Assembly (NCBI RefSeq): GCF_949628265.1
Contig: NC_088787.1
Coordinates: 1,850,501 to 1,914,500, forward strand
Direction: 5' to 3'
Length of the DNA stretch: 64,000 bases
From: Cloeon dipterum
Lineage: Eukaryota; Arthropoda; Insecta; Ephemeroptera; Baetidae
The notes under the pieces were generated by a model. That model saw only the letters and a list, made by a program, of their open reading frames with translations. It was not told the origin of the DNA and made no database searches. The position numbers were made by a program, and so were the translations under genes. Positions 24,093 to 50,658 of this stretch are shown piece by piece (position 1 is the first letter of the stretch; every line of letters starts with the position of its first letter).

Positions 24093-26633
24093 TCATTTTC
24101 TTTGTCGATGGCGGGCTGGGAGCTGGGAAATATCGGCTGCTTGTAGATCAGGAGGAGGGGACCTCGAAATGACGTCATCGTGGTTGTCACGGAAAACGGT
24201 CATTTGATGGCTCTCGTTGGTGTTTAGCGAAAGGAAATATTTTCTTTTCTTTCTCAGAAAAATCAAAATCAACAGGATCACGGTAAATACGTTGCAGCAG
24301 AAAAGAATTGTGCTAAAATTTAAATATTTCTGCAATTTTCCGGTCTGGATGCTTCTATCCTGAACCTCAGTCGTGGCAGTTTCCTCAGTGGGCGTCGAAG
24401 ATTTTGTTAAATTTGGAATGGACGAGGTACCAGGCGTAGTGTGATTCAGTTCTGGGAGTTGCGTGCTTGGGGCGTCGCTTTCTTGAAATATTTTAGTTGT
24501 TGATTGTATTTGAATCGACGTTGAGGTAGTCTCTTCTGCAGGTGATGAAGATTCTGTTGTGGTTGGAATAGACGAGCTGCTGGATCGTTCTGTGCTGGTG
24601 ATAGACGTAGGTTTGGCCTTTGGGGAAATGGCAGTAGTCATTGGAATGGCAGGCGTAACTGAAAGAAGAAGAAATTAATCAACATAATTTTAGCATCAAC
24701 AGATACTCCAATCATAATTAAAACTACGTTAAAAACACAAAAAATAAATATTAAAAGGGCCGATTGTTAGTTTTGTTTCTCTTTTAATAATGAAATCATA
24801 CCTGGAAAGGCCTCGTAAATATACGATTTTGTTCCTACTTCAGCCTTAAAGAGCCGGAATCTTGGCTTCCCATGGATATCAAACACTGTCATCCAAAAAG
24901 TTCCATTTTGGTCTATGGCAAAAGTAAACGGCCAAGTATTAAGTCCTGCGATCTAAAACCAAGAAAGGCCCCAACTTAATTAATAAGAATTTACGACAAG
25001 AAAAGGTTAAATTTTTCACCGTGAAAAAAATTTTAATTTTTCCTGAGCTAGGAAATGTGTTTTAGATTGTATTGAATTGATGCGAATGATTGTTATATCC
25101 ATCACCACAATTATCTGCCACCACGCAGGGTTGTAATATAATCAACTTTCTGACTCTACAAGGAAAAACTAAAACTGCCCCCTCCCAAAACAAATATGAA
25201 CGTATGTGCAAGAAGTGCACATGCGTCACAGCTGGTTTGAGCACTTGCAAAGAGGCCGTCTCTGTACGAAATACCTCTTTGTCACATCCAGCCAGTTCTG
25301 ACGCTGCACTTTTTGGTCGGAAAAACATCCCCTTTAACTAATTTTAACCTCAAAAATCGATTGGTGTGCTCAGAAACTCCGTAAATGGAACGTAGGAGCT
25401 TGCTTTCGACTGAGAACACATTCTTACTGGCTAACAAAATCAAGAAATATTTCCAATAGAATGAACCAATCGCGAAATATTATAGAGTAGGCAAAAATAT
25501 TTAAATTAGTACAAAATTTATAGTCTGTTCTTAAATATTATTTACCTCAAGTAAACGCTGCTCGTGAAATGGCTGGGAAGTGTTCCACGTGGATATGTAG
25601 GTTCCCCAAAATGCGGCGTACATGGTTCCTTGGTTGTCCATCAGCATCCTATATGGCACTCCAGTCCATTTTCCGATTGGTTTCGGATTTGAAGTTCGAG
25701 TTCCGTTGCGAAGTGCGGCGACGGAAATTGAATAGAGTTCATTGGAGTTCCATTTGCTTAAGTAGAGCTGTCTCGGTTCCTGATCCTTTTTAGGGGACAG
25801 GGCAATGGAAGAAACATTGATTCCTTGCAAGTCCACTGTCCAAGAGTGATTTTTTTCCAAACTGAACACGATAATGTATCGTTTCATCTGCTGCGAAATG
25901 TAGACAAAGGTTCCATCGTGCGTTTCGTCAATTACAAAGTCGTGCGTAAAGTCGTTCGTAAAGTTGTTAAAAGAATACCGATGAATTAATTTGGTTTGAT
26001 CGTTGTTGTTCAAGTCGATCGTCCATATTTTGGCAGTGAATATTTGGCTACCGTCTTCGATCACCCACATAGCCTGCCAACGGAATCCACTTCCAGCCCT
26101 TTTGCTATTCCGATTTGGTTGCAGTCTCCATCTCTCTGAAAAGGAGGAATTGTTTTAGACAACAACAAGTAGCATTTTGCAAAACAAAATTTTAAATCAT
26201 ACGTGTCCTGTTTTACCTACTCTCTTTTACTAATCGAAATCTAACGTAAAAACAGTGTAATGTAAACATAATAATTTAAGATGATTTTCTTTGCAGATTC
26301 AGAACAGCTTTCTCTTTAAAATATACAACAAATGGCATTTATTTTTTTACTTACATTCATCTCCCACGAAGGGAAAGGAGTGAGTTTTGGAGGGTCAAGG
26401 GACGCGCTGCTCGTCGGCAAAGACACCAGACTTGCCGGAATAGACCAATATTTATAAAGACTGAGGAAGATCCTTGGTCCGTAGACAGCCATGTATTGAA
26501 CAAATATATCCCCTGGATTGAAATGTCTATTTTTCAAGGCCTCGGATGGCCACTCGTAGACTAGGGTGAAGTTGGCGGCGTTGGTCAGGGATGAAATTCC
26601 GAGCAAGAAAATGGAGATGAAAAACAGAGACAT
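24093..26633 (-). CDS. YL-E: membrane-anchored Yellow/MRJP-family protein, exon 2 frame anomaly
   Basis: Exons 26633-26355 (93 codons, signal MSLFFISIFLLGISS), exon 2 ending at 25546, 24952-24802 and 24658-24093. Exon 4 codes a Ser/Thr/Pro-rich stalk of about 105 residues, a TM helix (NVFTVILLILIFL), basic RKKRK and a 50-residue cytoplasmic tail (NTNESHQMTVFRD, PPPDLQAADIS). With the usual exon 2 acceptor (start 26135) two extra bases (CTATGTGG against CTGTGG) break the frame. If splicing uses the AG just before 26073, the reading continues in phase as A-M-W-V-I-E-D and gives 507 aa. That skips the first conserved Cys; the partner Cys of exon 2 is also absent here (SQIFTAK). Exon 1 lacks about 14 residues after VYEW. 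Type I membrane topology is inferred. Confidence 0.65.
25200..25385. repeat. Dispersed repeat, family 3, copy 1
   Basis: CAGCTGGTTTGAGCACTTGC, the CTGTACGAA word and ATCGATTGGTGTGC recur in the same order at 55142-55370. It lies in the intron between exons 2 and 3 of YL-E. No coding content. Confidence 0.55.
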
Positions 26634-27014
26634 GTTTCTGACCACTTCCAACCCCTGTTCCCAAAGAGCACAAAAATCGGAAACAAAACTTTGAGAAAAT
26701 TCTGGATGGAGTGACGAATGCGACGCGCAATAAGAAATTCGAAAAGAGGATAATTTGATCAAAAACACACGTTGCTTTGTACGCAAAACAACCCTTGAAC
26801 TTTCTGAATTCTTTCAACATAAAGTTGCATAGATTCTTTAATAACTATAGGTTGACTGAATGAAAGAGTTTGATCTTCCGAATGATCTGTAATGTATTTT
26901 GAAATGAAAAAATTACATGAAAGAATAGCTACAGAAACAGGTTTCTAGAATTGAAATTGAACCTTCTTTAAAATTAATTCTTAGAGAAGAAAAATTAATA
27001 AAAATGCTGTATCT

Positions 27015-27525
27015 CGCGACTCACTTGATCTGTAAAAATTGTGAAGTCAAGGCTGCCGAGTTTAACACTATTAGCCGTTGTTAACGCGAGGAAGAATCAC
27101 TCGCAAGTGACTGGAGCAGGGCTTTTATAGTGACAAGTAATAGTCGCCTGATGGAAAACACTATTCCAAAGAGCATATTTGAGAGAACAATATATAGTCT
27201 CACGAAACATTTCAATGAACAAATAAAACATCCTTACACGGTGAAATCCAGTTGGTCGAGGATTAAGTGCTTTATTTTTTATTTTGTTTTGTAACCCAAA
27301 AATGATTACTTTTGTGAAATGAAAAATATTCTGACGTAATTTATAGGTCCAATAAAAGGGATTTAAATAACGTCGTTACCATTTTCCAAGACCCTCAATC
27401 ACCCAACGGTGTCCAGCTCCAATAGTGCTGTTGCCTAGATACTGCTTAAGATTTCTCGCTTGCTGACAAGTATATCGCCTGTTAGAAAATATTTACATTC
27501 CAAAGAGCAAATTTGAGTAAACACT
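27015..27525 (-). promoter_or_regulatory. Leader exon and two upstream modules of YL-E
   Basis: 27015-27125 holds the GTTAACGCGAGGAAGAAT leader and a GTGAGT-type donor at its 3' side. 27145-27195 and 27465-27525 carry the ATTCCAAAGAGCA.ATTTGAG block, the second with full AAATATTTACATTCCAAAGA. Having two copies suggests local duplication. 27526-28290 holds spacer and the 3' flank of YL-F, with V-T-P-stop exon 4 remains near 27955. Confidence 0.5.
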
Positions 27526-28294
27526 ATAATTTATGTTAAATGAATAAATAAATAAATATTCTTACAAGTACCATATCCTGCACATTTTCTACGAACAAAA
27601 ACGCCGCTCCCATTTTCCATGACCCACTTCCAATCCTGATGCTGCTACAATTTTTCACTTGCTACAGCAAATAATACTATATATAATTTGTTCTTACGTC
27701 TTTTCAATAATTTCATGGCATGCATAACATGGAAAATGGTTGGAAACTTTATTTAAATTAAAAATAATTTGAGTCATAACAACTAGGAGAACAATTTAAT
27801 TCATTTTTTTATTCGAAACTCTTTAGCTTCTAAAGCTAAAGCATCGCCTAATTCACTTTCTTCACTGATTGCTTACAGATATTTAAGCTGCTCCTAGAGA
27901 GATATTTGACTTCGAGACTTTTTAGATGTGGTAGTAGTATTTCGAATGGCTATGGCGTAACTGAAACAAAATAAATCAACATATATGGTATTGCATCAGA
28001 CATTCCAACTTTCGTAAAATCAAAGTGAAGTCAACAATCAAAAATTTAGAGCTGCAATACATTCCCACCGCTTTATTGATAAAACCAAATGAGTGCTGTG
28101 GGAGCAGAGATTTTAGCAATTCTTGGATGCGCAATCTCAAGAGATATGGCCAAAGGTATGGTCAGTTGAGATACTCCAAGTACTGACCAGTTATTAAAAA
28201 TATTAATTGATATATTTTTAGTGATTTTTAATAGGGGTTGTTCCCTTTCTAATATTAAAAAGGAAACTTACCTATAGCAAGACCTTGGAGGATT

Positions 28295-29792
28295 TTACTC
28301 ATCGACAGCAACGTTCAAAAGCCTGTATCTCGGATTTTGGGTACCATAATCTACTACTGTCATCCAAATAGTGTCATTTTGGTCCAAGGCAAGAGTAAAT
28401 GGCTAAGAATTAAACAAATCAGCGATCTAAAAACAAGCAAGCACGGTTTCAATGTTTAATTATTTTTGTGAAGAAATTTAATATTGAAATTCAAAGAGGT
28501 TAAATTCTTTAAAAAGTTGAGAAATTGGATTTCACGCAGAAAAGCGATACATTTGTTAGTTATAGTAATATTTGCTGCCACAAATAACTGACTTCCATGT
28601 AATATGTTATTGTAATTTCCATTTCTTTTCACTCCAAGCAAACAAGAGAAATTTCACTTTCGATTAAGGAAATTTCATATTTTTCCCTTAATTTTGATTT
28701 TAAAATATTTTAATATGTTCTTTATGTTGAATTGGCAGATTGCAGTGAGGAACCATATAATCGTTTCAAAAACCCGAGGAAAATTAGAAGGGAATTAATT
28801 ATTCTGTTCCTAAATGAAAGTTTTAATTGGTGACCTACCTCATGAAATCGCTGCACCTGAAATGCTTGGGATGTGTTCCAAGATTTTATGTTGTTACGGA
28901 ACATAAAAGCGGAATACAGAGTCCCGTAGTTGTCCATCAGCATTTTATACGAATTCATTGAAACCCACTTTCCAATTGGTGTCGGATATACAGTTCGAGT
29001 TTTACTTTGAAGTGCGGCAACGGAAATTGAAAACAGTTTATCGGAGTTCCATTTGCTAAGGTAGAGAGTTCCTGGTTCCCCTGTGTTAGGGGAAAGAGCA
29101 ATGGAAACAAAACGTGTTCGTTTCGTTTTCACCTTCCAAGATTCATTGCTTTCCAAACTAAAAACGACAATAAGTGATTTTGCCCACCGCGAGATGTAGG
29201 CAAAGGTTCCGTCGGCTGTTTCGTCGAGCACCAAAAGTCGTGCATGTTATAGCGAAATGAAAACCGGTGAAGAAGTTTGGTTTGATCGTTGTTGATCAAA
29301 TCGATCATCCAAAGTTTGGCTTTGCATTTGTTGCTACCGCTGTCCAGCACCCACAGCCTTCCAACGGAATCCACTTGCAGCCCTGCTGCTACTTCAATTT
29401 TTTTGCACTTCCCCTGCAAATAGTATATAATTATGATTGGACAAAGAAGAGCATTTATTTTTTATACTTACATGAAAATTCATGCCCCACGAAGGGAATG
29501 GAGTGAGCTTCGGAGGTTCAGAGGACGCACTGCTCGTCGGCATCGACACCAGAGTCACCGGAATGCCGTTAGGACTCCGAACGCTGAGGAAGATCCTTAA
29601 ATCGTAGACAGCCATGAAAATAGGATAAATATTTTCTGGTTTGAATGTTCTATTTTTCAAGGTATGTGTCCTATTTTCCTCGGACGGCCACTCGTAGTCC
29701 CACTCGTTCCACTCGAAGACTTGAGTGAAGTTTGCGGCGGTGGCCCGCGATGAAAGGCTGAGCAAGATAACGGTGACGAAAAACGGAGTCAT
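28295..29792 (-). pseudogene. YL-F: broken Yellow/MRJP-family gene
   Basis: Exon 1 (29792-29472, signal MTPFFVTVILLSLSS) and exon 2 (29413-28839) are clear copies of the family. Exon 2 has two extra T in the HDLVLDE codons (near 29232), shifting the frame. Exon 3 (28426-28295) has TAG at 28403-28405 in place of the conserved Trp of the WPFT motif. Both lesions remove the C-terminal half. The rest is well kept (GLQVDSVGRLWVLDSGS, SIALSPN, QSKTRT), so inactivation is recent, or the sequence has errors. It is closest to gene C in exon 1 and in the early exon 3 stop. Confidence 0.8.
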
Positions 29793-29959
29793 GGTTCTGG
29801 TCACTTAATCCCACTGAAGGCAGGAAAACATAAAAGGCAATGGTTTTATTATGAGAAAATTATGTACGGGACGTGCAACCATAAAGTCAAATAGTGTTTC
29901 TTTTTCACTCATACACTTAGAGAAGTAACGAAATAAGCTTAAGTGAATAATTTTTGCTT

Positions 29960-30125
29960 ACCAGGCACTCAAAACTGTGAAGATAAGTCTGCGGAGCCCA
30001 ACACTTTCTCGATGTTAACGCTTGGAAGAATAACTCAAGTTTTACTGGAGCAGCGCTATATATAAGTTCTCGCTTTTATAGTCGCCGAATAGAAAATATT
30101 TACATATAAAAGACCATATTTGTAA
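29960..30125 (-). promoter_or_regulatory. Leader exon and upstream module of YL-F
   Basis: GTTAACGCTTGGAAGAAT near 30014, then a TATATATA stretch near 30056 in TATA-box position, then AGAAAATATTTACAT near 30090. Regulatory parts survive although the coding part is broken. 30126-30900 holds spacer blocks shared with other intergenic stretches and no gene. Confidence 0.5.
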
Positions 30126-31053
30126 AAACAATAATTGAATTCAACTTGTATGTAAAATGCACAAATAAAGCTTTCTTACAATTACAAATTACATCCTACT
30201 GAGTTTTCGTTACGATTGTCCAAGACCCAACTTCCAATCCTGTTTGTATGCCTTTGGATGCTGCTGAATTTTATTGGAAATTTGTTCAAAATAATTTTCA
30301 ATCATGATTTATTGCATGAATAACATGGAAAAAACCGCATATAAAACCGTATATTAAATATTTATTTATATATACACAAAAATTTGCAATGAAAATTTAA
30401 CTACTGTCTTAAAATAATTTGTTAATTTGAGGAAAATGACCGAAAACTATATTTAAATAAAAATTGATTGAATTATGACAGTAAGAAGATCAATTTTATT
30501 CAAAAACCTCATATCATGGCATATTCAGGATTAATTTTTATATCAATTAAGTATTTGGAACTACCTTTAAATAATTTGTCAACTTGAACAACTCGATCAT
30601 GTCGGCTCCTGAATATATTATATGTTTTACTTTAGAACAACTCTCCCTCTATGTCTTTTAGGGAAGAATTTTCTAATTATTTAATATATTTTGCTGCAAA
30701 ATGCCCAGTTTTACAAGAAAAATAGGTGAAACAATTTTAATAAAAATATAGAATTAGAAGATTGAAACACCATATTTATTTCCAGTACACAGAAATACAA
30801 TTCAGAATGATTGGAAATAATTTTTAAAAATTATTGGTTTCAAGTAAAGAGGTGAATTTGTTTAAACTGCAGCAACGCGAGCATCGCTTAATTCACTTTC
30901 TTCACTGATCGCGGTTTGAGAAATTTCGGCTGCTCCTAGTGATTGTAACAAGAGGGCGTGGCAGCGGCCTGGTCGTATTTAGTTCATCCTAAACCATTCC
31001 GTGGGGCTGACACGTCATCGTGGTTGTCACGTAAAACGGATTTTTTGGACTCG

Positions 31054-32911
31054 TTAGAGAGTTTGGTTTTTTATAAGCCTCAATCTTGGTTTCCTTTCTT
31101 TATCAAACACTGTCATCCAAAAAGTTCCATTTTTGTCCAAGGTAAAAGTAAATGGCCAAAAAGAATTGAGTCCAGCGACCTAGAACCAAGCAAAGCACAG
31201 TCAAAGATGATTAAGAATTAATGTGTAAATTTAGTACATATTGAAATTCAGGAAGTTTAAACTCTTTATCAAGTTTGGAATTCGCATTTCACGTCAGATA
31301 GGATAAATTAAGCCAAAGAACATAGTTAAATACGCTGCCAACAAATAACTGCTTCCTCGCCGGATATTAATCTAATTTCCAATTATTGTAATTAGGCAAA
31401 CATAATAAATTTAACCTCCGACTAACGAATTTATCTATTTTCCCCTTCATTTTGATTAAAATAATTTAGATATGGATTCTTTTATTGAATTGGCAGTTTG
31501 GAGCGATATTTTTTTTTATTTAATCATTTTATCGGTCAAATCGCAGAACATTGCAGTGTAAAAAATGAAACGAGGAGCCCGTAATAATCGTTTTAAAGAC
31601 CCGAGGAAAATTGGAACGAAAACAATAATTAGTCTTTACTGAAATATAATTTTAAATTGGTGACTTACCTCGCGAAAGCTCTGCGCCTTAAATGGTTGGG
31701 ATGTATTCCAAGATTGCATGTTGTTCTTGAAGACAAAAGCGGAATACATAGTCCCGTGGTTGTCAATCATCATTCTATATGAATAAGGTGTAATCCACTT
31801 TCCAATTTTTTTTGGTTTTGCAGTTCCAGTTCCGTTGCGGAGAGTGGTGACGGAAATTGAGTATAGTTTCTTGGATCGCTGTTTGCCAAGGTAGAGTTTT
31901 CTCGGTTCCTCCATACTAGGGGAAAGAGCAATGGAAACAACACGTGTTCGTTTCGTTTTCACCTTCCAAGATTCATTGCTTTCCAAACTATACACGACAA
32001 TGTATAGATTACCCCACTGCGAAATGTAGGCAAAGGTTCCGTCGGCTGTTTCGTCGAGCACCAAGTCGTGCATGTCATGGCGAAATGAAAACCGGTGAAT
32101 AAGTTTGGCGTAATCTTTGTTGTTCAGGTCGATCTTCCAAAGTTTGGCTTTGCATTCGGAGCTACCGCTGTCGAGCACCCACAACCTTCCAATGGAATCC
32201 ACTTGCAGCCCTGCTGCTACTTCAATTTTGTTGCAGTTTCCCTGCAAAAAGTTTAATTGGCTTTTTTAAAACAGGGTCAGTCTGAAGGTTTCGGATTTTG
32301 CCGTAAACAATGTCTTTACTGCAACAAAAATTTTAATTCGTGTCCTCTGTTTATCAATTGACGCTCAGGAAATTTTCTTCGATAGTCGATTGCAATTTGC
32401 AATCAACCCCTGGAAATATTTGGCTGATTCGAAAACTTGAGGAACGAGCCACGCCTGGGAAAAATGACAAAGAAAAAAGGAACTCTGGAACACTTAGGAA
32501 TCTCAAAAATTGCGTATAAATTCTTTTTGCAGATTAAGAACGGTTTTCCCAATAAAATGTACAAAGAAAAACATTATTTTTTATACTTACATAATCATGC
32601 GAGTCCCACGATGGAAATGGAGTGAGTTTTGGAGGTGCAGAAGTTGCGCTGCTCGTTGGCAAAGTCACCAGACTCACCGGAATACCGTCAAAATTGCCAA
32701 GGCTGAGGAAGATCCTTTCTCCGTAGACAGCCATGTAATGAGGACAAATTTCCTCTGGTTTGAACGTTCCATCCTTCAATGCCTTTGTCTTGTTCACCTC
32801 TGCCGGCCACTCGTAATCCAATTCATCCCACTCGTAGACTTGAGTGAAGTTGGCTGCGGTGGCCAGGGTTGAAAGGCACAGCAGGAAAATGGTGCACAAA
32901 AACGGAGACAT
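31054..32911 (-). CDS. YL-G: secreted Yellow/MRJP-family protein
   Basis: Exons 32911-32591, 32241-31669 and 31179-31054 (321+573+126 nt) give 339 aa. Signal peptide MSPFLCTIFLLCLSTLATAA. Exon 2 has GNCNKIE and SSECKAK Cys, GLQVDSIGRLWVLDSGS, HDLVLDETADGTFAYISQW, SIALSP and QSWNTSQPF. Exon 3 has SFWPFTFTLDKNGTFWMTVFD, then ends TAA after KNQTL. Straight after the stop (31050-30940) the DNA continues into tail-exon remains (ACGTGACAACCACGATGACG), so exon 3 and the old tail were joined by a deletion. Splice sites are canonical. Probably functional and secreted. Confidence 0.83.
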
Positions 32912-33174
32912 AATTCTCGCCTCTTGCAACTGTTCTCAAAAAACATAAAAATAAAAACGTTACTGTGAAAAAATTCTGAATGGAGCGACGAAAAAGACGT
33001 GCAACCAGAAAGTCGAAAGAAGTTTTATTTTCATGAATACAAAAAGTTGAAACACTAAATAATACTTTTTAATTGGAATATAGCCGGAAACTGAGTACAT
33101 AAGAATTGTAACTGCATGTTCTTCAAAATTAAAGCTTATAAGAGAAGAAATAAGCTAAGTGAAACATATTATAG

Positions 33175-33290
33175 ATTCTCACCAAGCACTCTGCCAAAAT
33201 TGTTAAGATAAAAGTCAGCGGAGCTCAACACTTGCCCGATGTTAACGAGTAGAAAACGAACTCACAAGTGATCCAAAAGGATTTTATTTC
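33175..33290 (-). promoter_or_regulatory. Leader exon of YL-G
   Basis: CCGATGTTAACGAGTAG and ACTCACAAGTGATCC near 33236-33270 correspond to the shared leader; the sense-strand donor is GTGAGA near 33180. The upstream CTTTGGAATG block is only weakly recognisable near 33310. 33291-34048 holds no gene that I can support. Confidence 0.4.
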
Positions 33291-34048
33291 TTCAAGCAGG
33301 AGGTGCTCCGACGGATGGAATACATTGCAGAGTAATTGGGTGAACCATATTTCACCACGCTTTCACAATGAACTAATAAAACATCCTTGCACAATGCAGT
33401 CCAGTTGGTCAAGTGCTTTAGTAAGTGCTTTAAATTTAGAAATTGATTTGTTACACAAAAAGACTAATTGTGCAATGAAAAATATTCAGAAGCAAAGCGG
33501 CGTTAGTTCCAATAAAAGGGATTTAAAAAATGTCGTTACCATATTCCAAGACCCTCAGCCACCCAACGCTGATGTTGCCTTAGATACTGATAAAGATTCT
33601 TCGTTTGTTGCAGCGCATAATCGGAAGAAAAGTTAGTAAAATCTTTTCAATAATTTAAATGTGTTAAGTACTGAATTACCTAGTAATCTCTGTATTAATG
33701 TCACTTGCTAGCCGCATGCATGGCTAATTAAGTATTTGCACTAGGGAGAATAATGAAAGGCAGGTATTCTTTCTCTCACTCTCTGTACTGTACTGTCACT
33801 CTTTATTCTTCTCCCACCTCTCCAAAATGCGCGCCACCTGTCGGTGACTACCTCATCTATTTATTTGAATATAACAAAATGAATGATCATAATGGACAGG
33901 GTCGGAAAATTGAATTTTAACAAATAGGAGAACGAGTTGATTGAAAAACCTCATAAAATAGTATCATTAGAGCAATAATAGGATTAAACCCAATTTAAAA
34001 TATTTGTCAACCTGAGAATAACACGTCGGCTCCTGATTATATAATATA

Positions 34049-36468: not shown

Positions 36469-38544
36469 TCAAAACGGGCCTGTTAATATTTTCCGAAACT
36501 CTCCGTGGAATTTCGCAGGCATCGCTATATCATTTTCTTCGCCGGTCGCTCTCTGGGAATTTTCGGCTGTTAAGAGATCAGGGGAAGGGTACCTCGAATT
36601 TTCGTCAAGGTGGTTGTCACGGGAAAAGGTAATTTCATGACTATCGTCAGTGTTTTGCGAAAGGGAATTGTTCCTCTTCTTTTTGAGGAATATGATCAAA
36701 CCGACACCGAATAGGATCAGGATAAATACGACGGATGAGCAGATAAGAATGAGTTTGAAAGGCGATTTTTCAGTCTGGGTGCTTCTCTTCTGCAACTCGG
36801 ATGGGGCAGTTGTTTGCTCAGCAGGCGTCGAAGATTTCGTTGTGGTCGGAATGGATTCTGTGCTGGTGATAGACGTTGGTTTGCTCTTCGGGGAAATGGT
36901 AGTGGTTGTTGGAATGGCGGGCGTAACTGAAACAAAAGAAGAAATCAACATGATGTCGTGTATTCTAGCATCAAAAGGTATTAATCAAAGTGAAAGCAAC
37001 AATATTTAGCAATCATTAGTAAATATGTTATTTTAAAGTAAATATTTATAGGGCTGATTAAAAGTTTGGCTTTCTCCTCCCTAACCTTACCTGGCAAGGG
37101 CTCGGAGGATTTTTCTCCGACTGCAGTCTTCAAAAGCCTTAGCATGTATCTTAGCTCTTTTTTTGCATCTGTCTCCGTCATCCAAAAAGTTCCATTTTGA
37201 TCCAAGGAAAAAGTAAATTGTCTATTAGCAACGATTCCTGCAACCTGAAACCAAGCAAAGCACCAACTCGAAGATTATATTTATAGAATTTTAGGAAGAG
37301 GTGTTGAATATTTTAATTTCGCTAGTGCTCGGACAATTTTAGACAATCACTTGGACGGCCATAGATCACAAAAGATTGTAAAGTGTGCAAAAATATGTAT
37401 TCAACGAGAGGATCTGCAAACTCGTTGGATTCAAATGATATTTTAAATTTATGACCTATACCTTATGAAAATGCTTCTCCTGAAATGGCTTGGAAGTATT
37501 CCAAGAGAGAATGTAGTTTTCCGACAAAAATGCGGCATACATGGTCCCGTGGTTGTCCATCAGCATTCTGTAAGGTTTTGCAGTCCATTCTCCGATTAGA
37601 TTCGGATTTGCAGTTCCAGTCCCACTGCGAAGTTCGGTAGCGGAAATTGAATACAGTTCAAAGGAGTAGTAGTAGCCGAAGTAGAGCTGTCTCGGCTCCT
37701 GATCCTCAGGGGACAGGGAAATGGAGAAAACCTGTATTCTTGGCGTTTCCACAATCCAGGATTCATTTCTTTCCAAACTAAACACGACAATGTTTCGTTC
37801 TTTCCACCGCGAGGTGTAGGCAAAGGTTCCATGATTTGTTTCGTCGAGCACCAAGTCGTGCATCCAGTCGTAAAAAGAAAACTGATGAATCAGTACGATG
37901 CGATCGTTGTTGTTCAAATCGTTGATCCAAATTTTTCCTTTGCAATTGTAGTTTCCTCTGTCCAGCACCCACATAGCCTTCCAGCGGAATCCACATCCAG
38001 CCCATTTACTTCTTTAATTTTGTTGCAGTCTCTCTTTCTCTGAAAAAGACGAATTGTTTTGAATTTCGACGTGAACAAACAGTGGCTTTTATAGCAAAAC
38101 TATAAGATACTAAATAAGCTATGAAATGTTAAAAATGCTTCTCTTTGAAGATTCAGAACAATTTTCCTTATCAATTAAAATGTACAAGAGCAGATAACAT
38201 ATACTTTTGATACTTACATGAAGATGCATGTCCCACGATGGAAATGGAGTGAGTTTCGGAGGTGCGGAGGATGCGCCGCTCGTCGGTAAAGACACCAAAT
38301 TCACCGGAATGCCGTCACTATTTAACAGGCCGAGGAAAATTCTTGTTCCGTACGCAGCCATGTAAAGAGGTTTGATTCTCGCCTTTGGATCATAAGTTCC
38401 ATCTTCCAAGGCTTGCGTCCTGCTTTCCTCCGATGGCCACTCGTAGTCAAATTCCTCAGTCCATTCGTAGACCTGAGTGAAGTTGGCGGCGGTGGCCAGC
38501 GATGAAAGGCCAAGCCAGAAAATGGCGACTAAGAATGGAGACAT
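36469..38544 (-). CDS. YL-H: membrane-anchored Yellow/MRJP-family protein, exon 2 frame anomaly
   Basis: Exons 38544-38218 (109 codons, signal MSPFLVAIFWLGLSS), exon 2 ending at 37462, 37244-37091 and 36926-36469. The last exon has a Thr/Pro/Ser stalk (VTPAIPTTTT), a TM helix (VVFILILFGVGLIIFL), KKKR and a cytoplasmic tail with NTDDSHEITFSRD and PSPDLLTAENSQ. As in gene E, exon 2 from the usual acceptor (38039) meets a CTATGTGG in place of CTGTGG, a 2-nt frame break. Using the AG before 37977 restores phase and gives 484 aa. The rest of exon 2 (MWVLDRGNYNCKGK, HDLVLDET, SISLSP) is intact. Exon 3 lacks the FWPF motif (VANRQFTFSLDQNG). Likely a type I membrane protein; role unknown. Confidence 0.65.
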
Positions 38545-40380: not shown

Positions 40381-40707
40381 CCCAGGATGAGCCAAAATTG
40401 GTCAAACTGGACAGAATCATGGTTAAAACGATGAAACAGATGATGTAAAACAAGTGTGACAGCCCATGCATTAAATAAATTGGATTTGAAATAAAATATT
40501 TCCCATACCGCCTAAACATAACATAAAACACATATTAACCAGAAAGTGATTATTGTTTAATGATAATTTCACAATTTCCTCCGTGTTTGTAATTCCTTTA
40601 TTTGCGCAATTAAGTATTTACCTTACTCACTCATATATCAACTGCGGCACGAATATTAATTTCAAGTCAAAACAAACAAACGCTCACGTTGGCCAATGCC
40701 ACGAAGC

Positions 40708-40811
40708 GAGGAGAGGAAGAAAATAATTATTTCGTTCAGTGAGCATTTAGTGTTTTTGCTGCGCTTGGATAGAGAAGGTAGTTTGAAGCTTCTAATAATC
40801 AACGACTCAAG
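40708..40811 (+). other. Probable 5'-UTR exon of EF3
   Basis: It matches 2242-2361 before EF2 (TTGAAGCTTCTAATAAT) and ends AAG followed by GTACAA. It would be spliced to the exon starting at about 41191, eight bases before the ATG. Confidence 0.5.
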
Positions 40812-41198
40812 GTACAATTTTTCTTTTATAAATATAAGGCTAGATGAATATTTTCGGGGACAAGATAGGTTTTTGTCAATTTTGTTTATTTCTAATTTAC
40901 ACTGCATTTACTATAGTTCTTAATTAAACTGAAAATATCCATTTTATCTATTTTATTAGCCTTTTCCACGGTGAGCCAGAGGCGGCCATTGTCCATTGAG
41001 CTAAAGATGTAAATTTGGCTGTTGTCGAAACTTGCATGAATTTGGTAGCATTCTTCCTCGTACGAATAATTAATCATCTAAAATTCGCAGCCCTAAAATT
41101 ACCAGCAATTAAACACACTTTACACATATAAAATTTGAATTTAATATGTATTTTTTTAACACCAAGAAAATTTTATTTTATTTTATTAAGGATTCACC

Positions 41199-44100
41199 AT
41201 GGTGCAGAAGATCCCAACGTGCATGTTGTTACTCCTCTTCCTTCTCGGTGAGAAATTATCACTCCTTGACGGACAAATTTAATTTTTTTAAGCAGGGTTA
41301 TTCCACGTTGCTTTTGGATATTTGGTCCAAGTTAAATCCACGGACCGAATCAAGGCTTGCATCACTGATGATCACCAACATGCGGTAGCTTTCATCAAGT
41401 CCTGGAACACAATAGGTATTTATGTTTGACAATTTTTAAAAATTACATTGTTTTTTTAGTTGATTAAGAAATATCATTGAGTCATATTTTAGTAATAGCT
41501 TGACAGTAAATAGTAGTTGTAAATTTGTTATTTTTATGTCAATTTACACAAATATTTTCCACTCTTGTTCGTTATGTAAGATTTATGTTTGTTTAAATTT
41601 CGGCTTTTGATTATTTACAACAACATTTTTATTGAAATATCCTGTGAAGATTGCAACAACAATGTGGAAATCTTCGGTTTGGACGGAAGTTCCAACCAAC
41701 TGGGAAAATTCGACTGCAATTTGGTGAAGAAAGGCGGCTGTGAACAGTGGCAAACACAAAATTTCTCAATGAAATCGAACAAATACGGAAATTATCCGGC
41801 TGTTACTGACTTTCGTTGGCACGGTTCGTTTTCTTAACATTTTCCAAATAAATAAAAATTAAGTGGGCTTTTACAGACCTGCCAGTTTATTCCGGAGATA
41901 ATTATACTTTGCTGCTGACGGAGGAAATCAGGAAGAACAAATCAACCAGCTCTCATTACTCAATGCTAACTGAAGCTGGCTACAAAGTGATGATTGGCCA
42001 AGAGAGTTTGTTGGATGCGTTAAACCTAACAAGAAATATCCCCGAGGATGAAATTCTCATTGGGAACTTTTGGGATATTCCGCATTCCATTGATTTCTTA
42101 TTTCAAAACTCTGATTTTCGCGTACGTATGATAAATTTGCACATTCAATTATAGCTGACATTTGCTTATCAGCCTGTAGATTTCCCGAAACAAAATCTAT
42201 GGCATATCATGACTCTTGAATACTCGGCAGAAACAACAAAACTAGAAATGATCATTCATGAGGAAGGCAAAAGGTCATTAATTGGTAGTACATTAATGTA
42301 AGTAAAAATATTCGAGTTTACTTATAATTTAATCGAATATTAAATATGCTTTTAGGGATCTGGAAGATTTCATCCCAACAATCATGCTGTCAGGATCTGC
42401 ATTGGTGAAGCATCATGCTTGTAAGACTTTCAAATATCCAACTTTAACCAATTTTCGAATGCCTTTAAAAGGCAAAATATATAGCATATTGATGGCTACG
42501 CTGGTTGTGGTCAGAGAGTGTCTTTACAAAGTCTGTGATTGCTATCACAGCTTCACACGCTGGAGCGAGAGCCTCTCCGGGCAATCACAGAGTATTTTCA
42601 GATTTCAGAGTCGCGTGACTGCTCAATGTTTTACCCAGACATAAAAGCGGGCACATATTTCAAACGTGAATTTCTTGGATGCGTTCATTATTGTTCTTCC
42701 TGTTTGCGGTATTAATATCGTAGATAAAGGACGGTATAGGTAGGACTGGTGGACATACTAGGGGGTGGTCGTCACTCTTATGGCCTGAACTCATCCCAGC
42801 TAAGAGTTTCCCAACTCAATCGTAGGACTTGAAGAGCTTTTGTGGGCGTAACTTATTGACGTGCGCAAAATACTGCTATTCAAAACGATCGGGACGAGTT
42901 CGGGCCACAAGAAAGAGCACCCCCTGGCGGATACTGGCATTAACGGCTTATGTTTACATACGGGATTTTTAGCCCCTCCTCCAATGACGTCACTGACTGC
43001 CAGCAACCCGTGACGTCATTGAAGAAGGGGCTTAGAATATCCCGTCTGTAAATATGTCGGTGTATGTAGATCAACTCGTGCGCATTTGTTTGACAAGTGG
43101 GGCGCTTGCTATCGCTGAGTCGCGTGCGACGTGTTAGACATAATATTGGAAAAGAACAATCCGTAAATCATAAAATTGCTTCCTTAATCTGCGATTGGTC
43201 CTTTGGCGTTCTTGTCGCTACACTTCTTATCAGTTCTGATCATAATCACTAACGTTGATCCACTGTTTTTTTACGTCATAGGTTTCTTAACAAATATTGG
43301 CCCTTTGACACCGTCTAAAATAAACTTCCTCATTTATTCAAATTAATTCCAGACAATGTGCTTGTGCCCGAAAAATTAAATGCTTGGATGGAACGAGAAA
43401 TAGACATCAAAGAAGCAAGTCCATTCTGCGTTGACGTTGTTTACATTTTGAAAAATAAACTGAACAGTTCAGAAAGTCCTTTGAACGTCACTTTGACGAT
43501 GCAGAACGGCCGAACGGAGCATTTCACTCATAACGAAGCTTCAGAGAAAGGTGCTGCCACCTGGCAAGTTGCTAGGTTTGAAAATCGGCAACGTCAATTC
43601 CAGGGAAAGGCGACGATCAGGTTGAGCGTTGGATCGAAAGACCTGGAAATTGGTGGAGTAAAATTCTGCACAGGAGGTTTGTTTTAATATTTTTCTCACG
43701 ATATTTTTATTTTTCTCTAAATTCAGGAGACTTGATGGTTGTTCCAAAGGACCACAGTGATCAGTTTAACTGTCAGATACTGTCTGATCAACCCCCAGAA
43801 ACGAATGGAGAAGATATTAAAAAAGGTATTAACAAAATATTTTGTTAATAATAAGAACATCCCGGAGATTAATTCTCCAAATGCATCACTTCACTTTTTG
43901 TAATGTTGCATGGATTCAGAAATTACATCTAATAAATAATTTTTAAATTTTAGTTGCTATTAGTTGGAAAATTTGCGAACGACTGGGCAAAAAAGACTGT
44001 TCAGAGTTGAGAGCGGGACAGCATTGCTTTGCAGGCTATTCAGGAGAAAATTGCGAGACACGTAATATTATAAACACCTTCAAAAACAATCTTCTAACAA

Positions 44101-45385
44101 TTTTCCCTCAACAGCTTGTTCCGGAAATAATTATGGAATGGATTGTGCTGAAAATTACCCAGCTGGCCGTTGTGTCAACGATGAATTCAGTAGAAAGGAC
44201 GGATCGTGCAATGTTGCTTGTACAAATGGGACGTTTAGCTTTCCTCTGTGCACCAATCGTAGGAGAATATCTAAATTTTGGTTATCATCTTAGTAATAAA
44301 CTCTTAATACGTAGCAATTAGAATGGTGGACCCTATGGTTGTGAGTGTCTCGAGAACAGCCATTAAATTGAGGATGCCGGACAGTAGCCAGCTCACTGGT
44401 TACGACCACATCGCCGTGCAGTACAGAAAAGTAATAACTTTAAGAAATTAAACTATTACTCGAATAATTAAAAAATCTCTACATTTAGAAAAACGCAGGA
44501 ACAATTTGGCTCACCAAGGTTCATAAAGACACGGACGGTGAATTTGTTACACTTGATAATCTTAGACCAAACTTGGACTACGAGATCACTCTTACTGTGT
44601 ACGAATACAATTGGGAAATGTATCCGCAAAATGTGATGCCTGGCCCAATTATCACTGTTAAGACTTGCAGTCCGATTGGTGAGTTGCAATTTTAAAAAAG
44701 ACATGGCGTTTATTCTGTTTTTTATCGGATTTTCCTAGATGGCTTAAATCTCGAGATCCAAATTGACGACTCGGGTGCAGCTCTGATTTCTGCAGCAATT
44801 GAAGAGGATTACTGCCAGCTGGACACTTTAAACATATTTCTTAAAACTGATATTGAAATAAGAAGGGAACAATTCCTGGAAACGTTACCCATCGTGAACA
44901 AAACGCACTACAAGCATAAATTGCATTCATGCGTATCCGGATCCTACTACGACGTGTCGCTCTTGGATGTAAACCAAAACGAAGTCAACGCCAGACTCAT
45001 TTGCACGTCTCAAGACCATTTAGAAGTTTCATCACCACCCACAAGTAATCTCAGAGTTAAAGTAATTTACAATAAATATCTTTTTGTTATTTTATTTTTG
45101 CAGATCCTCTGATTCCTAACCGAGGCAGACCGATCAGTAAGTTGAACGTTTAAAATGTGTTATTTATTTTAAACAATTTGATTAGGTGAGTCGTTTGTTG
45201 ATATCACCACCGAGGATCCAGATAAAGCGTTCATTCCGACCAACTCCGCCTTGACCTCCCCCTTGTTGGAGATTCCGACGCCAAAGATTGCCTTAGGCAT
45301 GTTCCTGAGTATCGTATTTATCTACGCCCTTTGCTACTGCTTGTGTGATTTATTAAAATGCGCTTGTATGTGCTGTCCTTGTTGA
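41199..45385 (+). CDS. EF3: modular EGF-like/FN3 transmembrane protein
   Basis: Fifteen coding exons keep phase: 41199-41247, 41296-41415, 41650-41823, 41877-42121, 42173-42297, 42356-42420, 43353-43676, 43727-43825, 43954-44061, 44115-44258, 44315-44430, 44489-44678, 44739-45044, 45104-45136, 45186-45385; 765 aa. Exons 1-14 parallel EF2 almost one for one: signal peptide (MLLLLFLL), an unrecognised N-terminal region, EGF-like CFAGYSGENC, FN3 and the first Cys-repeat. Exon 15 starts like EF2 exon 15 (ESFVDIT), then turns into a Pro/Thr linker, a TM helix (IALGMFLSIVFIYAL) and a short Cys-rich tail (CYCLCDLLKCACMCCPC) that could be palmitoylated. The later FN3 and Cys-repeats of EF2 are missing. 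Intron 6 is enlarged by an insertion. Convergent with YL-I. Confidence 0.8.
42953..43055. repeat. Hairpin with two CRE-like palindromes in EF3 intron 6
   Basis: Arms of about 45 nt (42953-42998 and 43010-43055) are imperfect reverse complements, each with TGACGTCA and AGCCCCTYCT-like words. The matching EF2 intron (4602-4864) is about 670 nt shorter and lacks this, so it is part of an inserted element. Confidence 0.6.
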
Positions 45386-45486
45386 TTGCATAGAAAACAT
45401 TTTCAATTTTTTAATATTTATTTGCAATATCATTCCATTTGTAGGAGTTGTGGGCAGTAAGAGAAACACTAGTTTTCACTTAAAAG

Positions 45487-45492
45487 AATAAA
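45487..45492 (+). terminator. AATAAA polyadenylation signal of EF3
   Basis: AATAAA lies about 100 nt after the stop codon. The converging YL-I has an AATAAA on the minus strand near 45688, so the two 3' ends are within about 200 bp, as for EF2 and YL-A. Confidence 0.55.
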
Positions 45493-45721
45493 ACTCACTA
45501 TGCAAACTGACTAATTTGATTGAAAGTTAATTAAGATGAGCAATTAAAGTCCTTGAATATGTGTGCCACCTGCCTAGTCACCACACATTTCAATATATTT
45601 TCCAGATTTCATACACCTAAAAAAGGGTTTATTTCTATTCGAACGCTAATATTCGAATAATCTATATACAAATTGTGGAAGTACGCATTTTTATTTAATA
45701 AACTGGAGCCGGACAAGAATT

Positions 45722-47783
45722 TCAGTTATTACTGGGGAATATTTCAACTGCTTCTAGTTCAGGAAAAGGGGACATCGAATTGACGCTATCGTGGAATTTG
45801 TGGTATCTGGCTTTGTCACGATCGATGGTCATTTGATAGGCTTCGTTGGTGTTTGGCGGAAGGGAATTGTTGTTCCCATTCTTTCTCAGGATGATGAAAG
45901 TCAACAAGATCACGGTAAACACGTAGGAGCAGAAAAGAAAGATGATAAACAGCCAACATTGGTGCAATTTTGCTGCCAGGATGCTGCACTCCTGCACATC
46001 GATTGTGGCCGTATTCTCAACAGATGTTGTGGTCGATATTAAAAGGCTGGATCGTTCTGTGGTGGTGGCTGGAATGACTGGTGTGACTGGAATAAGAATA
46101 AATCAAACATTACGTTAATTGCCTATTCTAGAGAGGAGATACTAGAATTTCACCGTCTGAAGCCTTCAAAAGCCTGTATCTTGGATTTTCTCTCTTTTTA
46201 TCAAGCGTTGTGATCCAGATAGTTCCATTTTGATCCAAGGCAATAGTAAATGGCCAATAATCAATCAGTTGATTGGTCTAAAAGCAAGCAAAGCACGGTC
46301 TCGATGATGAAGGATTTCAATATAGAAATTTAGAGAATTGGGCTGAACACAAGGTTCGCTCTTACTGGCTCACACATTCGCAGATTATTTATTTTGAACA
46401 GTTATCGCGAAATATTACAGATTTAATAAATCATTTCAAAGAGGATCCAAAATACTCGTTATAAATTTCGAACGAAATTAATTATTCTGCACTTATACGA
46501 TACCTACCTCATAAAAAGGCTGCTCCAGAAATGGCTGAGAAGTGTTCCAAGAATGTATGTAGTGTTCGCTGAAAAAAGCGGCATAAATGATCCCGTGGTT
46601 GTCCATCACCATTCTATATGGTGTTGCAGTCCACTTTCCGATTTGTTTCGGATTTACACTTCGAGTTCTGTTGCGGAGTGTGGCGACGGGGATAGAATAC
46701 AGTTCATTCGAGTAGAATTTGCCAAGGTAAACATTTCTCGGTTCCTGATCTTTAGGGGACAGGACAATGGAAGAAACCTCCATTCCTGGCGTTTCCACAA
46801 TCCAAGATTGGTTTCTTTCCAAACTAAACACGACAATGTTTTGTTCATACTGCCGCGAGATGTAGGCAAACGTTCCGTTGGGCGTTTCGTCGAGAATCAA
46901 GCTATGCAAGTGCTGGCCGTAAAAACGGAACCGATGAATTAGTTTGCGTTCATCGTTGTTGGTAAGGTCAAAAGCCAATATTTTGGAATTGCATTTTTCG
47001 CTACCGCTGTCCAGCACCCACAGCCTTCCAACCAAGTCCAATTCTAGCCCTTTTGCTTCTTCAATTTTGTCGCAGATTCTCTGCAAAAAAAAATAAGAAA
47101 TTTGTAAGCTTTCTTAAAACAAAGAACCGAAACCAGTAGTGGCTCTCTGCAAGTAAACTTCTTGTCCTTTTTTACGAATGACGCACGAAAAATCATGGTT
47201 TTCTATACGTCAAATAATTACATTTAACCCAATGAATCTGGTTTTGAGATCAAAAGGACAATTTTCGGCAAGGATCGAAAACAACATTTGTCAATTCCTA
47301 GAGAAAATTACCAAAATAATTTCAGTTCTCAGTTGCCAGCACATAAAATTTAATTGATGTTGATTAATCAAGGCAAAACAGGCTGCAGTTGGGCTTGTCA
47401 AGAGTGAAATGTCTCCGCATTTTAATGCACGAAAACATTTAACTTGGCTATATAATTACATGCGTGTCCCTCGAAGGAAATGGGATGAGCTTCGCAGATT
47501 CAGAGGACGCGCTGCTCGTCGGCATAGACACCAGACTCACCGGAAAGTCATCATGTGTCTGAAGGATGAGGAAGATCCTTGATCCGTAGACAGCCATGTA
47601 ACGAGGATCAATGATCTTTGGGTTGATATTTCCGTCCCGCAGATCGAGGGACCTGTTCGCCTCGAACGGCCACTCGTCGTCCCATTCAACTACGTGCGGC
47701 CACTCGTAGACTAGTGTCAAGTTGGCGGCGGTGGCCAGGGATGAAAGGCCGAGGAAGAAAATTGCGACGAGAAACAAGGTCAT
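45722..47783 (-). CDS. YL-I: intact membrane-anchored Yellow/MRJP-family protein
   Basis: Exons 47783-47460, 47080-46508, 46277-46154 and 46086-45722 sum to 1386 nt, 461 aa, fully in frame. Signal peptide MTLFLVAIFFLGLSSLATAA. Exon 2: RICDKIE and SEKCNSK Cys, LVGRLWVLDSGS, FAYISRQ, SIVLSPKDQEP and HSWNTSQPF. Exon 3 has DYWPFTIALDQNGTIWIT and needs a GTGAAA donor after KASD; without it a TAG follows shortly. Exon 4: VTPVIPATTTERSS stalk (short, about 35 residues), TM helix (FIIFLFCSYVFTVILLTFII), RKNG, and a tail with NTNEAYQMTIDRD and PFPELEAVEI. The open anchor exon supports the chosen donor. Predicted type I membrane protein; EF3 is its tail-to-tail neighbour. Confidence 0.75.
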
Positions 47784-47819
47784 GCTTCAAACTGTTCTCA
47801 AAAGGAACAAAAATATGTC

Positions 47820-47970
47820 TGCGGACGTCTGCTACACTTGCCTGTTTGCTATCGCGTGGAGAAACAACTCTCAAGTGATCCGAGGACTATTTCATCACGG
47901 ATATATTGTGACAATTAAGTGGTTGCTCCACTCGATGGAATACATTGAAGAGAGTATATGTATGAGTGTT
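47820..47970 (-). promoter_or_regulatory. Diverged leader region of YL-I
   Basis: ACAACTCTCAAGTGATCC near 47862 matches the leader, but GTTAAC is lost. A weak copy of the upstream block (ATGGAATACATTGAAGAGA) lies near 47936. 47971-48718 contains the J 3' flank (AAAATGCGCAGTTTTACA near 48413) and no other gene. Confidence 0.35.
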
Positions 47971-48718
47971 TCCCCACTCTTTTACAATGAACAAATCCTT
48001 ACACAATGCGCATTCCAGATGGTCGAGGATTAAGTGCTTTAGATCTTAATCTTGGGGTCTTGTTTTGTTACCTAAAAAGATTACGTGTTCAGTGAAAAAA
48101 GTCTGACAGGTGTCCTGTAACATTTGACTGCGTTGAGGTATCAGAATTAAAAAAAACAACTAGAAGAAATAATTGATTGAAAGACCTAATATATAAAAAG
48201 TACATTCAGGATTAATCGTATACGAAAATATATTGAATAAGAAATTAACTGCTTTAAAATAAATTGCACGTACTTCCTGGTCTTCTGACAACAATAAAAG
48301 TAAAAGTTATTAGTATCGCTTTCTGTGAAAATTTACTGCAGTGCATCATAACAAACTGCTTTCTCTCCTTCACTTTTTATTAAGGATGCCTATTTCTGAT
48401 TAATTTACTGAAAAATGCGCAGTTTTACAAAAAAACCAATAGGTGGAACAGTTTTAATAACAAGAGACACAGTTGGATGAAACACTACATTTATTAACAA
48501 AACAAGGAAATACATTTAAGAATAATTACATGTTTTTAAATTATTAGTTTTAGGTCAACAATATAACTGATTTTTAACTCATCTGTAGAATCGTTTAATT
48601 CGCATTCTTCACTGATTGTTAACAGAAATTTCGGCTGCTCCTATAGATTTCTAGAGGGGGCGTTGCAGTGGCCTGGTTGCATATTTGATTTAGATCAAGA
48701 GGTGCCTGTCTAAATTTA

Positions 48719-50658
48719 TCAAAACTCCACGGCCTCGAAGTAATCGCTTTCGCATTCTTCGTCGGTCGCGTACTGGGCCTTTTCGGCTGCTTCTAGATCA
48801 GGAGAAAAAGACCTCGAATAGGCGTTGTTGGGGAATTCGTGTTCTTTGTTTGGTTTGTCACGGACAATGGTCATTTCATGAACCTCTTTTGTGTTTCGCG
48901 AAAGGGCATTATTTTTCCTGTTCTGTGTCAGGACAATGATGGAAGTCAAGAAGATCACGGTAAATACGTAGGAGCACAAAAGAAAGATGATGAAACGCCA
49001 ACATTGGTGCAATTTTTCTTTCAGGATGATGCACTCCAGCACTTCGGTTGTGGCACTATTCTCAGCAGACGTCCAAGATATTCGTTTTGTAGTGGTGGTG
49101 GGAATGAAAGGTGTAACTGGAATAAGAATATATCAACATGAAAAGTCGTTTACTCTAGCATCAAAAGATATTCAAACCATCAATTGCATTGAAAATAAAT
49201 GGTTTCGGAAATGGTTTATATATAATCTTTTGGCTAAGATTCTCATAACAAAATTTAAGAACTCCATATAATTTTTTTATTTCAGTCTTTGTTAAATAGA
49301 TCTTACCTGGTGAGGCTTCGAAGGATTGTTCCTTCAAAATCCTGTATGTTGAGTGTTCTATATTTCTGTCAATAACCGTAATCCAAAAAGTTCCGTTTTG
49401 GTCCAAAGCAAACAAGAACGACCAATCTTTGTGTGCAGCGACCTAAAACCAAGCAAGCACCGAATCGATAATATAATGATTTCTGACACTATAGATCCTG
49501 TTAAATTGTGCCAAACGATACAGTTAATAATTTTCTGCTACAAATTACTGACTTCTCTCGGACGACTTTATTTTAATTCCTACTTCCTGACTCTATATAA
49601 TCGTTACCAAATCCCGAATAACTATTCATTCTCTTCTCAAAAAAGTTACCTCATGAAACCGCTGCTCCTCAAATCGCTGGGATAATGTGTTCCAAGAAGA
49701 TATGTAATACATAGAGTAAAAGGCTGCATAAAGGGTTCCGTGTACGTCCATTAGCATTTTATGTGGTCTTGCAGTCCATTTTCCCATTCGATCTGGTTTT
49801 GCATTTCCAGTTCCGTTGCGGAGAACGGCAACGAGAATAGAATACACTTCAAAGTTGTCACGATTGCTGATGTAGAGCTTTCTCGGATGCTGATCCTTAG
49901 GAGACAGGGCAAGGGAAAGAACATGGATTCTTGGAACCAAAACACTCCAAGAAACATTTCTCTCCAAACTATATACGAAAATGTATTGACAAAACCAGCG
50001 CGAGACGTAGGCCAAGGTTTCGTTTTTCGTCTCGTCGAGCACAATGTGCAGCAAATCGTACTTTTGGGAAAAACGATGAACAAGTTTGGTTTGATCATCG
50101 TTGATCAAGTCGATGGTCCAAATTTTAGAATTGCAATCGGTGCTACCGTCATCTAGAATCCACATCCTGCCCACGGAATCCACTTCCAGCTTTTTTGGAA
50201 CTTCAATTTTGTTGCAACCTTCCTTTCCCTGCACAAAGAATTTTTAAACCGAATCAATCTAATGATGGGTCTCTTCCCAATTAAAAAAATCCCAATTAAA
50301 ATATACAACAAATGACATTAAAACAGTTTATACTTACATACATGTCCCACGAAGGGACTGGAGTGAGCTTCGGGGGTGCGGAGGACGCTCTCCACGTCGG
50401 CAAAGACACGAGACTAACCGGAATGCCAAAAACATGTGTAAAAAGGCTGAGGAAGATCCTTGTTCCGTACGCAGCCATGTCAAGAGGTTCAAAACGCGAA
50501 TCTGGATAAAAAGCTCCATCTTGCAATGCTTGTGTCCTGCTGGCCTCGGACGGAAACTCGTAGTCCAATTCATTCCATTCGTAAATCAGAGTTAAGTTGG
50601 CGGCGGTGGCTAGGGATGAAATCCCCAGCAAGAAAATGGCGCAACAAAACTGAGACAT
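48719..50658 (-). CDS. YL-J: intact membrane-anchored Yellow/MRJP-family protein
   Basis: Exons 50658-50338, 50228-49650, 49442-49307 and 49116-48719 sum to 1434 nt, 477 aa, with canonical splice sites. Signal MSQFCCAIFLLGISSLATAA. Exon 2: EGCNKIE and STDCNSK Cys, EVDSVGRMWILDDGS, LAYVSRW, LALSPKDQHPRKLY. Exon 3: FLFALDQNGTFWITVID. Exon 4: VTPFIPTTTTKR stalk, TM helix (FIIFLLCSYVFTVIFLTSIIV), then NTKEVHEMTIVRDK and FSPDLEAAEKAQ in the cytoplasmic tail, ending with an acidic DEECESDYFEAVEF. The tail resembles gene I most closely around the TM helix (HQCW before it in both). This is the best single model for an anchored member; no frame or splice problem is visible. Confidence 0.85.

Follow-up and report, generated by a model that had tools for sequence, protein, structure and literature searches.

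Yellow/major royal jelly protein (MRJP) genes of the mayfly Cloeon dipterum were found to include copies with a fourth exon, which encodes a stalk, a hydrophobic helix and a tail after the propeller domain. The DNA analyzed here, termed the window, is a stretch of 64,000 nucleotides (C2:1850501-1914500) in a genome of 190 Mb and ten contigs, and four of its Yellow genes (E, H, I and J) carry the exon. The fourth exon is real as a gene structure, is wider in its occurrence than first seen and evolves as coding sequence. Judged from sequence, it is reasonably probable that proteins with this exon cross the membrane once in type I orientation and are displayed at the cell surface, probably as receptors or tethered binders, alongside soluble counterparts. 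Members of the Yellow/royal-jelly family are regarded as secreted proteins with roles in pigmentation, nutrition or saliva. A large set of anchored members with constrained tails, in a winged insect of an early-branching lineage, would extend the family to the cell surface and possibly to signalling; it would also offer, in a laboratory-model species, a set of genes for soluble, glycosylphosphatidylinositol (GPI)-like and transmembrane (TM) versions of one binding domain.

Two intact genes with a fourth exon

Genes J and I, both on the minus strand, are open over four exons that encode 477 and 461 amino acids (aa), respectively, with splice phases 0, 0 and 1. A first-pass annotation of the window had described both genes as fully in frame, with phase 1 junctions between exons 3 and 4 at 49307/49116 (J) and 46154/46086 (I), and this description was confirmed. 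Exon 2, of 579 bases in J and 573 in I, matched the MRJP profile PF03022 with 49.2 and 74.2 bits, respectively, against a cut-off of 19.8 bits. The predicted splice signals of J are ordinary at every junction. The exon-3 donor of I is weak (ACG/GTGAAA); comparison by eye showed that the donor of its paralogs (CAG/GTAAG), ∼20 bases further on, is missing and that a TAG lies nearby.

Hydropathy analysis revealed the stalk, hydrophobic helix and tail already noticed after exon 3 in both genes, with stalks of 42 (J) and 47 (I) residues, best 19-residue hydropathy values of 2.57 and 2.76 and tails of 71 and 55 residues, respectively. The earlier description of the stalk as Ser/Thr/Pro-rich and mucin-like suits E, in which these residues make up ∼0.5 of the stalk (as also at loci L044 and L040), but is weak for J (0.31) and I (0.34). 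According to part of PMC6678240, a typical dopachrome conversion enzyme (DCE)/Yellow protein has one MRJP domain and a signal peptide, and an extracellular location is suggested. By hydropathy, I and J depart from this secreted type (signal peptide, no other membrane segment), which is typical of the family but not defining.

The predicted proteins were also compared with 139 public proteins from two assemblies, in which genes may count twice and all entries but P0111 are named Cloeon dipterum. The public model LOC135935981 (P0002) shares with J exons 1 and 4 and a portion of exon 2. Thus, the public annotation fits the use of exon 4 but not the full J model; exon skipping of this kind would break the propeller. 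Probe peptides of I, H and E were present in none of the 139 proteins, the searches having listed only part of the proteins that exist.

Exon 4 across the genome

An exon-2 match was obtained for ten Yellow copies within the window and an exon-4 match for four of them (E, H, I and J). The J exon-4 peptide matched the genome at 53 places, all on C2, and 48 of these matches are free of internal stops; the four copies, which had been called independent, are instead related paralogs. When the window and 20 further regions were considered together, an exon-4 match lay downstream of 24 of the 34 exon-2 matches. A simple splice caller gave an open four-exon model for 15 of those 24, a number that includes E (doubtful acceptor) and L044 (tail cut short by a stop); the exon-4 acceptors of L053, L055 and both L057 models fall inside the repetitive stalk and are uncertain. 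At the local base composition, the chance of a neutral open frame of 126-137 codons is ∼1e-4.

Genome-wide, at least 199 matches to PF03022 were obtained, some genes matching in two or three pieces. Most of the matches listed map to the initial 5 Mb of C2. Thus, the window genes are a small sample of a Yellow/MRJP expansion on the scale of one hundred or more genes.

Coding constraint on exon 4

Substitutions and indels were analyzed at 26 of 30 fetched exon-4 loci, L016, L022, L031 and L038 having been dropped because of stops in the match. Ten sister pairs, picked by eye and by similarity, comprise 20 of these 26 open loci. For the ten pairs, the pooled Nei-Gojobori ratio of nonsynonymous to synonymous substitution (dN/dS) was lowest in the helix (0.46, p = 0.005), followed by the tail (0.62, p = 0.0002) and the stalk (0.74, p = 0.043); the p values treat sites as independent, and the tail pool mixes long and short tails. 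For I versus J, the helix gave 0.33, the tail 0.60 and the stalk 0.61. In pairwise comparisons among all 13 full models (the 15 open models minus L044 and E), the median dN/dS was 0.49 for the ectodomain and 0.58 for exon 4.

Within exon 4, 21 of 24 indels were in frame (multiples of three), as compared with 19 of 79 in the flanks, taken as 300 bases on each side (Fisher p = 3e-8). The exon-4 gaps between I and J (15, 3, 3 and 42) are all multiples of three, and these two genes differ by 0.24 in exon 4 versus 0.40 and 0.51 in the flanks; the pooled pair distance was 0.099 for exon 4 versus 0.22-0.26 for the flanks. Given the indel frames and the dN/dS values, exon 4 is under coding constraint, and the dN/dS check proposed in the first-pass annotation thus came out against neutral evolution.

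Tail classes and family tree

Two classes of tail were distinguished. Short tails, of ∼53-74 residues, occur in I, J, E and H; long tails, of ∼95-155 residues, occur in paralogs outside the window and contain multiple Y[DE]x[V/I/L/P] motifs. The blocks found in long tails are YDDVG, LYEEV, PPSPxLYERPI, SPRSARRVKAMPxRxRTFEKFGEAPRAPV, EYDYV or EYDDVG, LYDxVAPE and QYLKxLP, and those conserved beyond YxxPhi include LYExP and the SPRSARRVKAMP block. Motif counts, which cover Y[DE]x[VILP] and YxxPhi, were made on a chosen subset of 13 long and ten short tails. Y[DE]x[VILP] was above shuffles in all 13 long tails (p ≤ 0.03 each), and YxxPhi was above shuffles in eight of them (p < 0.05). The Tyr columns of LYEEV and LYExP are invariant among those of the 13 aligned tails that have the column. 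Several long-tail motifs are retained in the divergent proteins P0103 and P0126, the identity between P0103 and P0050 being 37 percent.

A 76-residue long-tail probe gave 43 matches at E ≤ 0.01 and 35 at E ≤ 0.001, all on C2; 36 of the 43 are free of stops, and certain genes count twice. At the sensitivity of this probe, no donor gene for the tail was found elsewhere in the genome.

A tree, in which the root serves for drawing only and 54 of 128 inner branches are open, was built from 131 propellers, with lengths outside 300-600 aa and 11 named proteins judged chimeric, fragmentary or of unclear source excluded. The two sides of its midpoint both contain long tails, and I does not come out as the sister of J. 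Given this presence on both sides of the tree, the long tail is probably ancestral, with repeated shortening or loss; exchange of last exons is an alternative. Proteins bearing and proteins lacking a C-terminal hydrophobic segment are mixed, the label "none" changing 30 times and the label "short" 25 times. The ectodomains of L052 and L054 are separated by a synonymous distance (dS) of 0.26, whereas their fourth exons are nearly identical (dS = 0.05), a contrast indicative of conversion or of last-exon exchange.

C-terminal classes among public proteins

The first-pass annotation had called for a search of Yellow proteins for C-terminal helices. A hydropathy scan of the public Cloeon set detected a C-terminal hydrophobic segment followed by a tail of at least 15 residues in 41 of the 139 proteins, of which P0132 is false and P0023 doubtful, so that candidate helices of this kind do occur. 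Five further proteins end within a hydrophobic segment, and one is too short to score. GPI-like C-termini such as SSVFFVFLLAIAIL were recognized in nine proteins by one pattern (P0023 included) and in eight by another, eleven combined; P0007, P0011, P0016, P0017, P0019, P0020, P0034 and P0041 were noted as members of this GPI-anchor-like class. Nine helix-less proteins end in a CxxxC-type motif, with a short C-terminus such as ECSGSCPKSGTA, and this class comprises P0018, P0021, P0030, P0032, P0037, P0038, P0043, P0071 and P0096. Certain helix-less proteins enter exon 4 and then stop; thus, annotation or decay inflates the helix-less class. Three protein searches extending beyond Cloeon dipterum, which yielded exact-word candidates only and are no evidence that other insects lack the architecture, returned proteins named Cloeon dipterum, with the exception of P0111.

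Predicted fold, ligand site and related proteins

An AlphaFold model of the paralog P0085, obtained with 36 sequences, had a mean predicted local distance difference test score (pLDDT) of 74 and a predicted template modeling score of 0.63. The propeller was mostly modeled at pLDDT > 90, followed by a helix at residues 376-414 and a disordered tail. The top Foldseek matches of this model were an Aedes dopachrome conversion enzyme (9w1k), MRJP1 (5yyl) and LJM11 (3q6k). The PF03022 cut-off was also passed by P0085, P0103, P0050, P0069 and P0015. The Cloeon proteins therefore have in common with the Yellow/DCE/MRJP family (PF03022) the MRJP domain, a six-bladed propeller as predicted for the paralog and an N-terminal hydrophobic leader, and differ from it by the added last exon and by expansion to approximately a hundred or more copies.

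The consulted part of PMC5094789 reports that LJM11 binds serotonin via Thr327, Asn342 and Phe344, the first two by hydrogen bonds, and that sand flies have several Yellow-related paralogs per species. In an alignment read by eye, six of seven paralog peptides have Phe and the other has Ile at the Thr327 position; at the Asn342 position, the seven have Phe, Tyr, Gln (P0103) or Arg (P0126). In J and I, the former position is Phe and the latter is Ile or Leu. The 3q6k alignment match is weak (E = 0.017), yet its numbering agrees with that of PMC5094789. Since the equivalents of Thr327 and Asn342 are not kept, it is unlikely that an amine would be held as in LJM11. The propeller fold is common to the Cloeon and sand-fly proteins, but the latter are amine binders of saliva, from which the former differ at both hydrogen-bonding residues compared.

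The exon-4 products also resemble TMEM154 (PF15102) in their stalk, helix and basic stretch. Seven of 13 exon-4 peptides matched this profile at E ≤ 0.1, and in single scans, restricted to the exon-4 region, one of six peptides was over the cut-off (32.7 versus 30.3 bits). TMEM154 is a family not known to have a propeller; homology was set aside, as the match is probably compositional.

Damaged copies in the window

The same two extra bases are present in exon 2 of E and H (CTATGTGGGTG vs CTGTGGGTG), and the resulting exon lengths of 590 (E) and 578 (H) are not multiples of three. Given this common +2 frameshift, E and H are damaged, decaying copies, which probably either descend from one damaged ancestor or owe the lesion to conversion. 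E is open solely if an AG two bases downstream is used as acceptor, which would leave ∼20 propeller residues in an unrelated frame; for H, the simple splice caller found no frame-preserving acceptor. The earlier count of four anchored copies therefore stands insofar as exon 4 is open in all, but not for the exon-2 frames of E and H. The window copies are accordingly the less convincing members of the family: E and H are damaged, and of the intact genes J and I, the latter has a weak splice site.

Interpretation and alternatives

Membrane anchoring by exon 4, as predicted in the first-pass annotation, is backed by a frame that is open and under coding constraint, by public gene models and by the fold predicted for a paralog. 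If spliced in vivo as modeled, the proteins would run from a secreted-type leader through an external Yellow/MRJP propeller, a short stalk containing Ser/Thr/Pro, one helix and a basic stop-transfer stretch to a cytoplasmic tail, and would form one C-terminal class within the large C2 expansion. In the ancestral anchored form, Y[DE]x[V/I/L/P] and YLxxLP-like motifs would probably have recurred along a long tail. Once a putative ligand is bound by the propeller, these motifs may, if phosphorylated or read by clathrin adaptors, bring in partners for signalling, such as SH2 proteins, or for endocytosis. A receptor function may reasonably be inferred for the long-tail class. I and J, as short-tail derivatives without the motifs, would more likely be tethered binders or decoys, and the paralogs with GPI-like and soluble ends would be the anchored and soluble counterparts. 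The repeated short Tyr motifs of a single-pass tail recall ITAM/ITIM-type receptors; the Cloeon proteins differ in that the ectodomain is a propeller and the motifs are Y[DE]x[VILP] with YLxxLP-like ends. A bolder proposal, which we regard as unlikely, is an extensive and rapidly changing mayfly recognition-receptor system derived from Yellow, with a variable propeller, a constrained phosphotyrosine-motif tail and soluble, GPI-like or short-tail decoys or modulators. If true, its design would be comparable to multigene immune or self-recognition receptors.

Several observations weigh against a surface role for these proteins. Only open frames were kept, so that the indel count is biased toward in-frame gaps, and the closest pairs (L013/L023, L020/L029 and L026/L035) differ in the flanks about as little as in exon 4. 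The dN/dS values are just moderately below 1, and the tails of L026/L035 (1.02) and L014/L015 (1.33) are unconstrained. The sole public model sharing J sequence, LOC135935981, leaves out exon 3 and a portion of exon 2, and 92 of the 139 public proteins have no C-terminal hydrophobic segment. With regard to the motifs, the Y[DE]x[VILP] pattern was picked post hoc in tails that are related to one another, and was found neither in the tails of I and J nor in any of the ten short tails examined; P0126, from outside the 13-tail alignment, has Phe at the LYExP position. The idea that tyrosines are the conserved core of the tail found no support in column conservation, Tyr columns scoring 0.77 versus 0.735 for other tail columns (p = 0.31).

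A tenable, though not a probable, alternative is that the helix merely holds the propeller at the surface or delivers it apically, that the stalk is then cut to allow soluble action, and that the Tyr motifs serve sorting only. The mixing of helix-bearing and helix-less proteins in the tree, the existence of GPI-like and soluble ends, the YxxPhi enrichment in part of the long tails and the lack of acidic Tyr motifs in the short tails examined would all fit such an arrangement. Long tails have nonetheless been kept, under the pooled constraint described above, and their conserved blocks exceed the needs of a sorting signal. It is somewhat less likely that I, J, E and H are all decaying copies with exon 4 as a relic, such that an anchored gene would work elsewhere in the family but nowhere in the window. 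The frameshifts of E and H, the loss of the usual exon-3 donor in I and the aberrant public model of J could be read in this way; the fully open frames of I and J, however, together with their in-frame exon-4 gaps, lower divergence in exon 4 than in the flanks and dN/dS values for helix and tail, argue for constraint on these two. Very improbable is a surface amine binder, that is, a membrane version of the sand-fly salivary amine scavenger LJM11: the fold is the same and LJM11 is among the top structural matches, but both hydrogen-bonding residues are replaced, insofar as the weak 3q6k match allows their placement. Among these readings, that of type I surface proteins is preferred.

In literature titles and the opening lines of abstracts, no report of membrane-anchored Yellow or royal-jelly proteins, in mayflies or elsewhere, was recognized. 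The earlier view that the architecture is undescribed holds within that range, with most subscription papers and bioRxiv preprints outside its scope. Neither "yellow" nor "royal jelly" occurs in the main text of the Cloeon genome paper (PMC7250882), and "yellow" occurs once each, as a color, in the retrieved text of PMC11491810 and PMC11597413.

Other features of the window and genome

The coordinates of the four genes are collected in Table 1.

Table 1. Positions of the exon-4-bearing Yellow/MRJP genes in the window
Feature	Position	Strand	Remarks
Gene J exon 1	50338..50658	-	Signal peptide-like start and first propeller part; open frame, ATG, donor GTAAGT
Gene J exon 2, MRJP domain	49650..50228	-	PF03022 E 6.2e-13; acceptor GCAG, donor GTAACT
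Gene J exon 3, last propeller part, phase 1 end	49307..49442	-	Acceptor TTAG, donor GTAAGA
Gene J exon 4, stalk, TM helix and short cytoplasmic tail (predicted)	48719..49116	-	Also within public model LOC135935981 (P0002)
Gene I exon 1	47460..47783	-	Open frame, donor GTAATT
Gene I exon 2, MRJP domain	46508..47080	-	PF03022 E 1.5e-20
Gene I exon 3	46154..46277	-	Weak donor GTGAAA; donor site of paralogs lost
Gene I exon 4, stalk, TM helix and short tail (predicted)	45722..46086	-	Open frame, hydropathy
Gene E	24093..26633	-	Exons 26633-26355, 26135-25546 (+2 frameshift), 24952-24802, 24658-24093 (exon 4 open, TM)
Gene H	36469..38544	-	Exons 38544-38218, 38039-37462 (+2 frameshift), 37244-37091, 36926-36469 (exon 4 open, TM)

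Behind a plus-strand Yellow copy at 21194-22679, frames at 22768-23299 (+) resemble by eye a degenerate, frame-broken exon 4; the exon-4 search of the window reported nothing at this position. Between H and I, at 41580-45385 (+), open frames with EGF-like and C-terminal hydrophobic stretches were recognized by eye, and a Pfam scan of two of these frames gave no match; they are perhaps an unrelated receptor gene. On C1, at ∼18.97 and 18.98 Mb, several pairs of PF03022 matches have equal scores and a spacing of 10,367 bases, reflecting either tandem duplication in the recent past or a duplicate introduced by the assembly.

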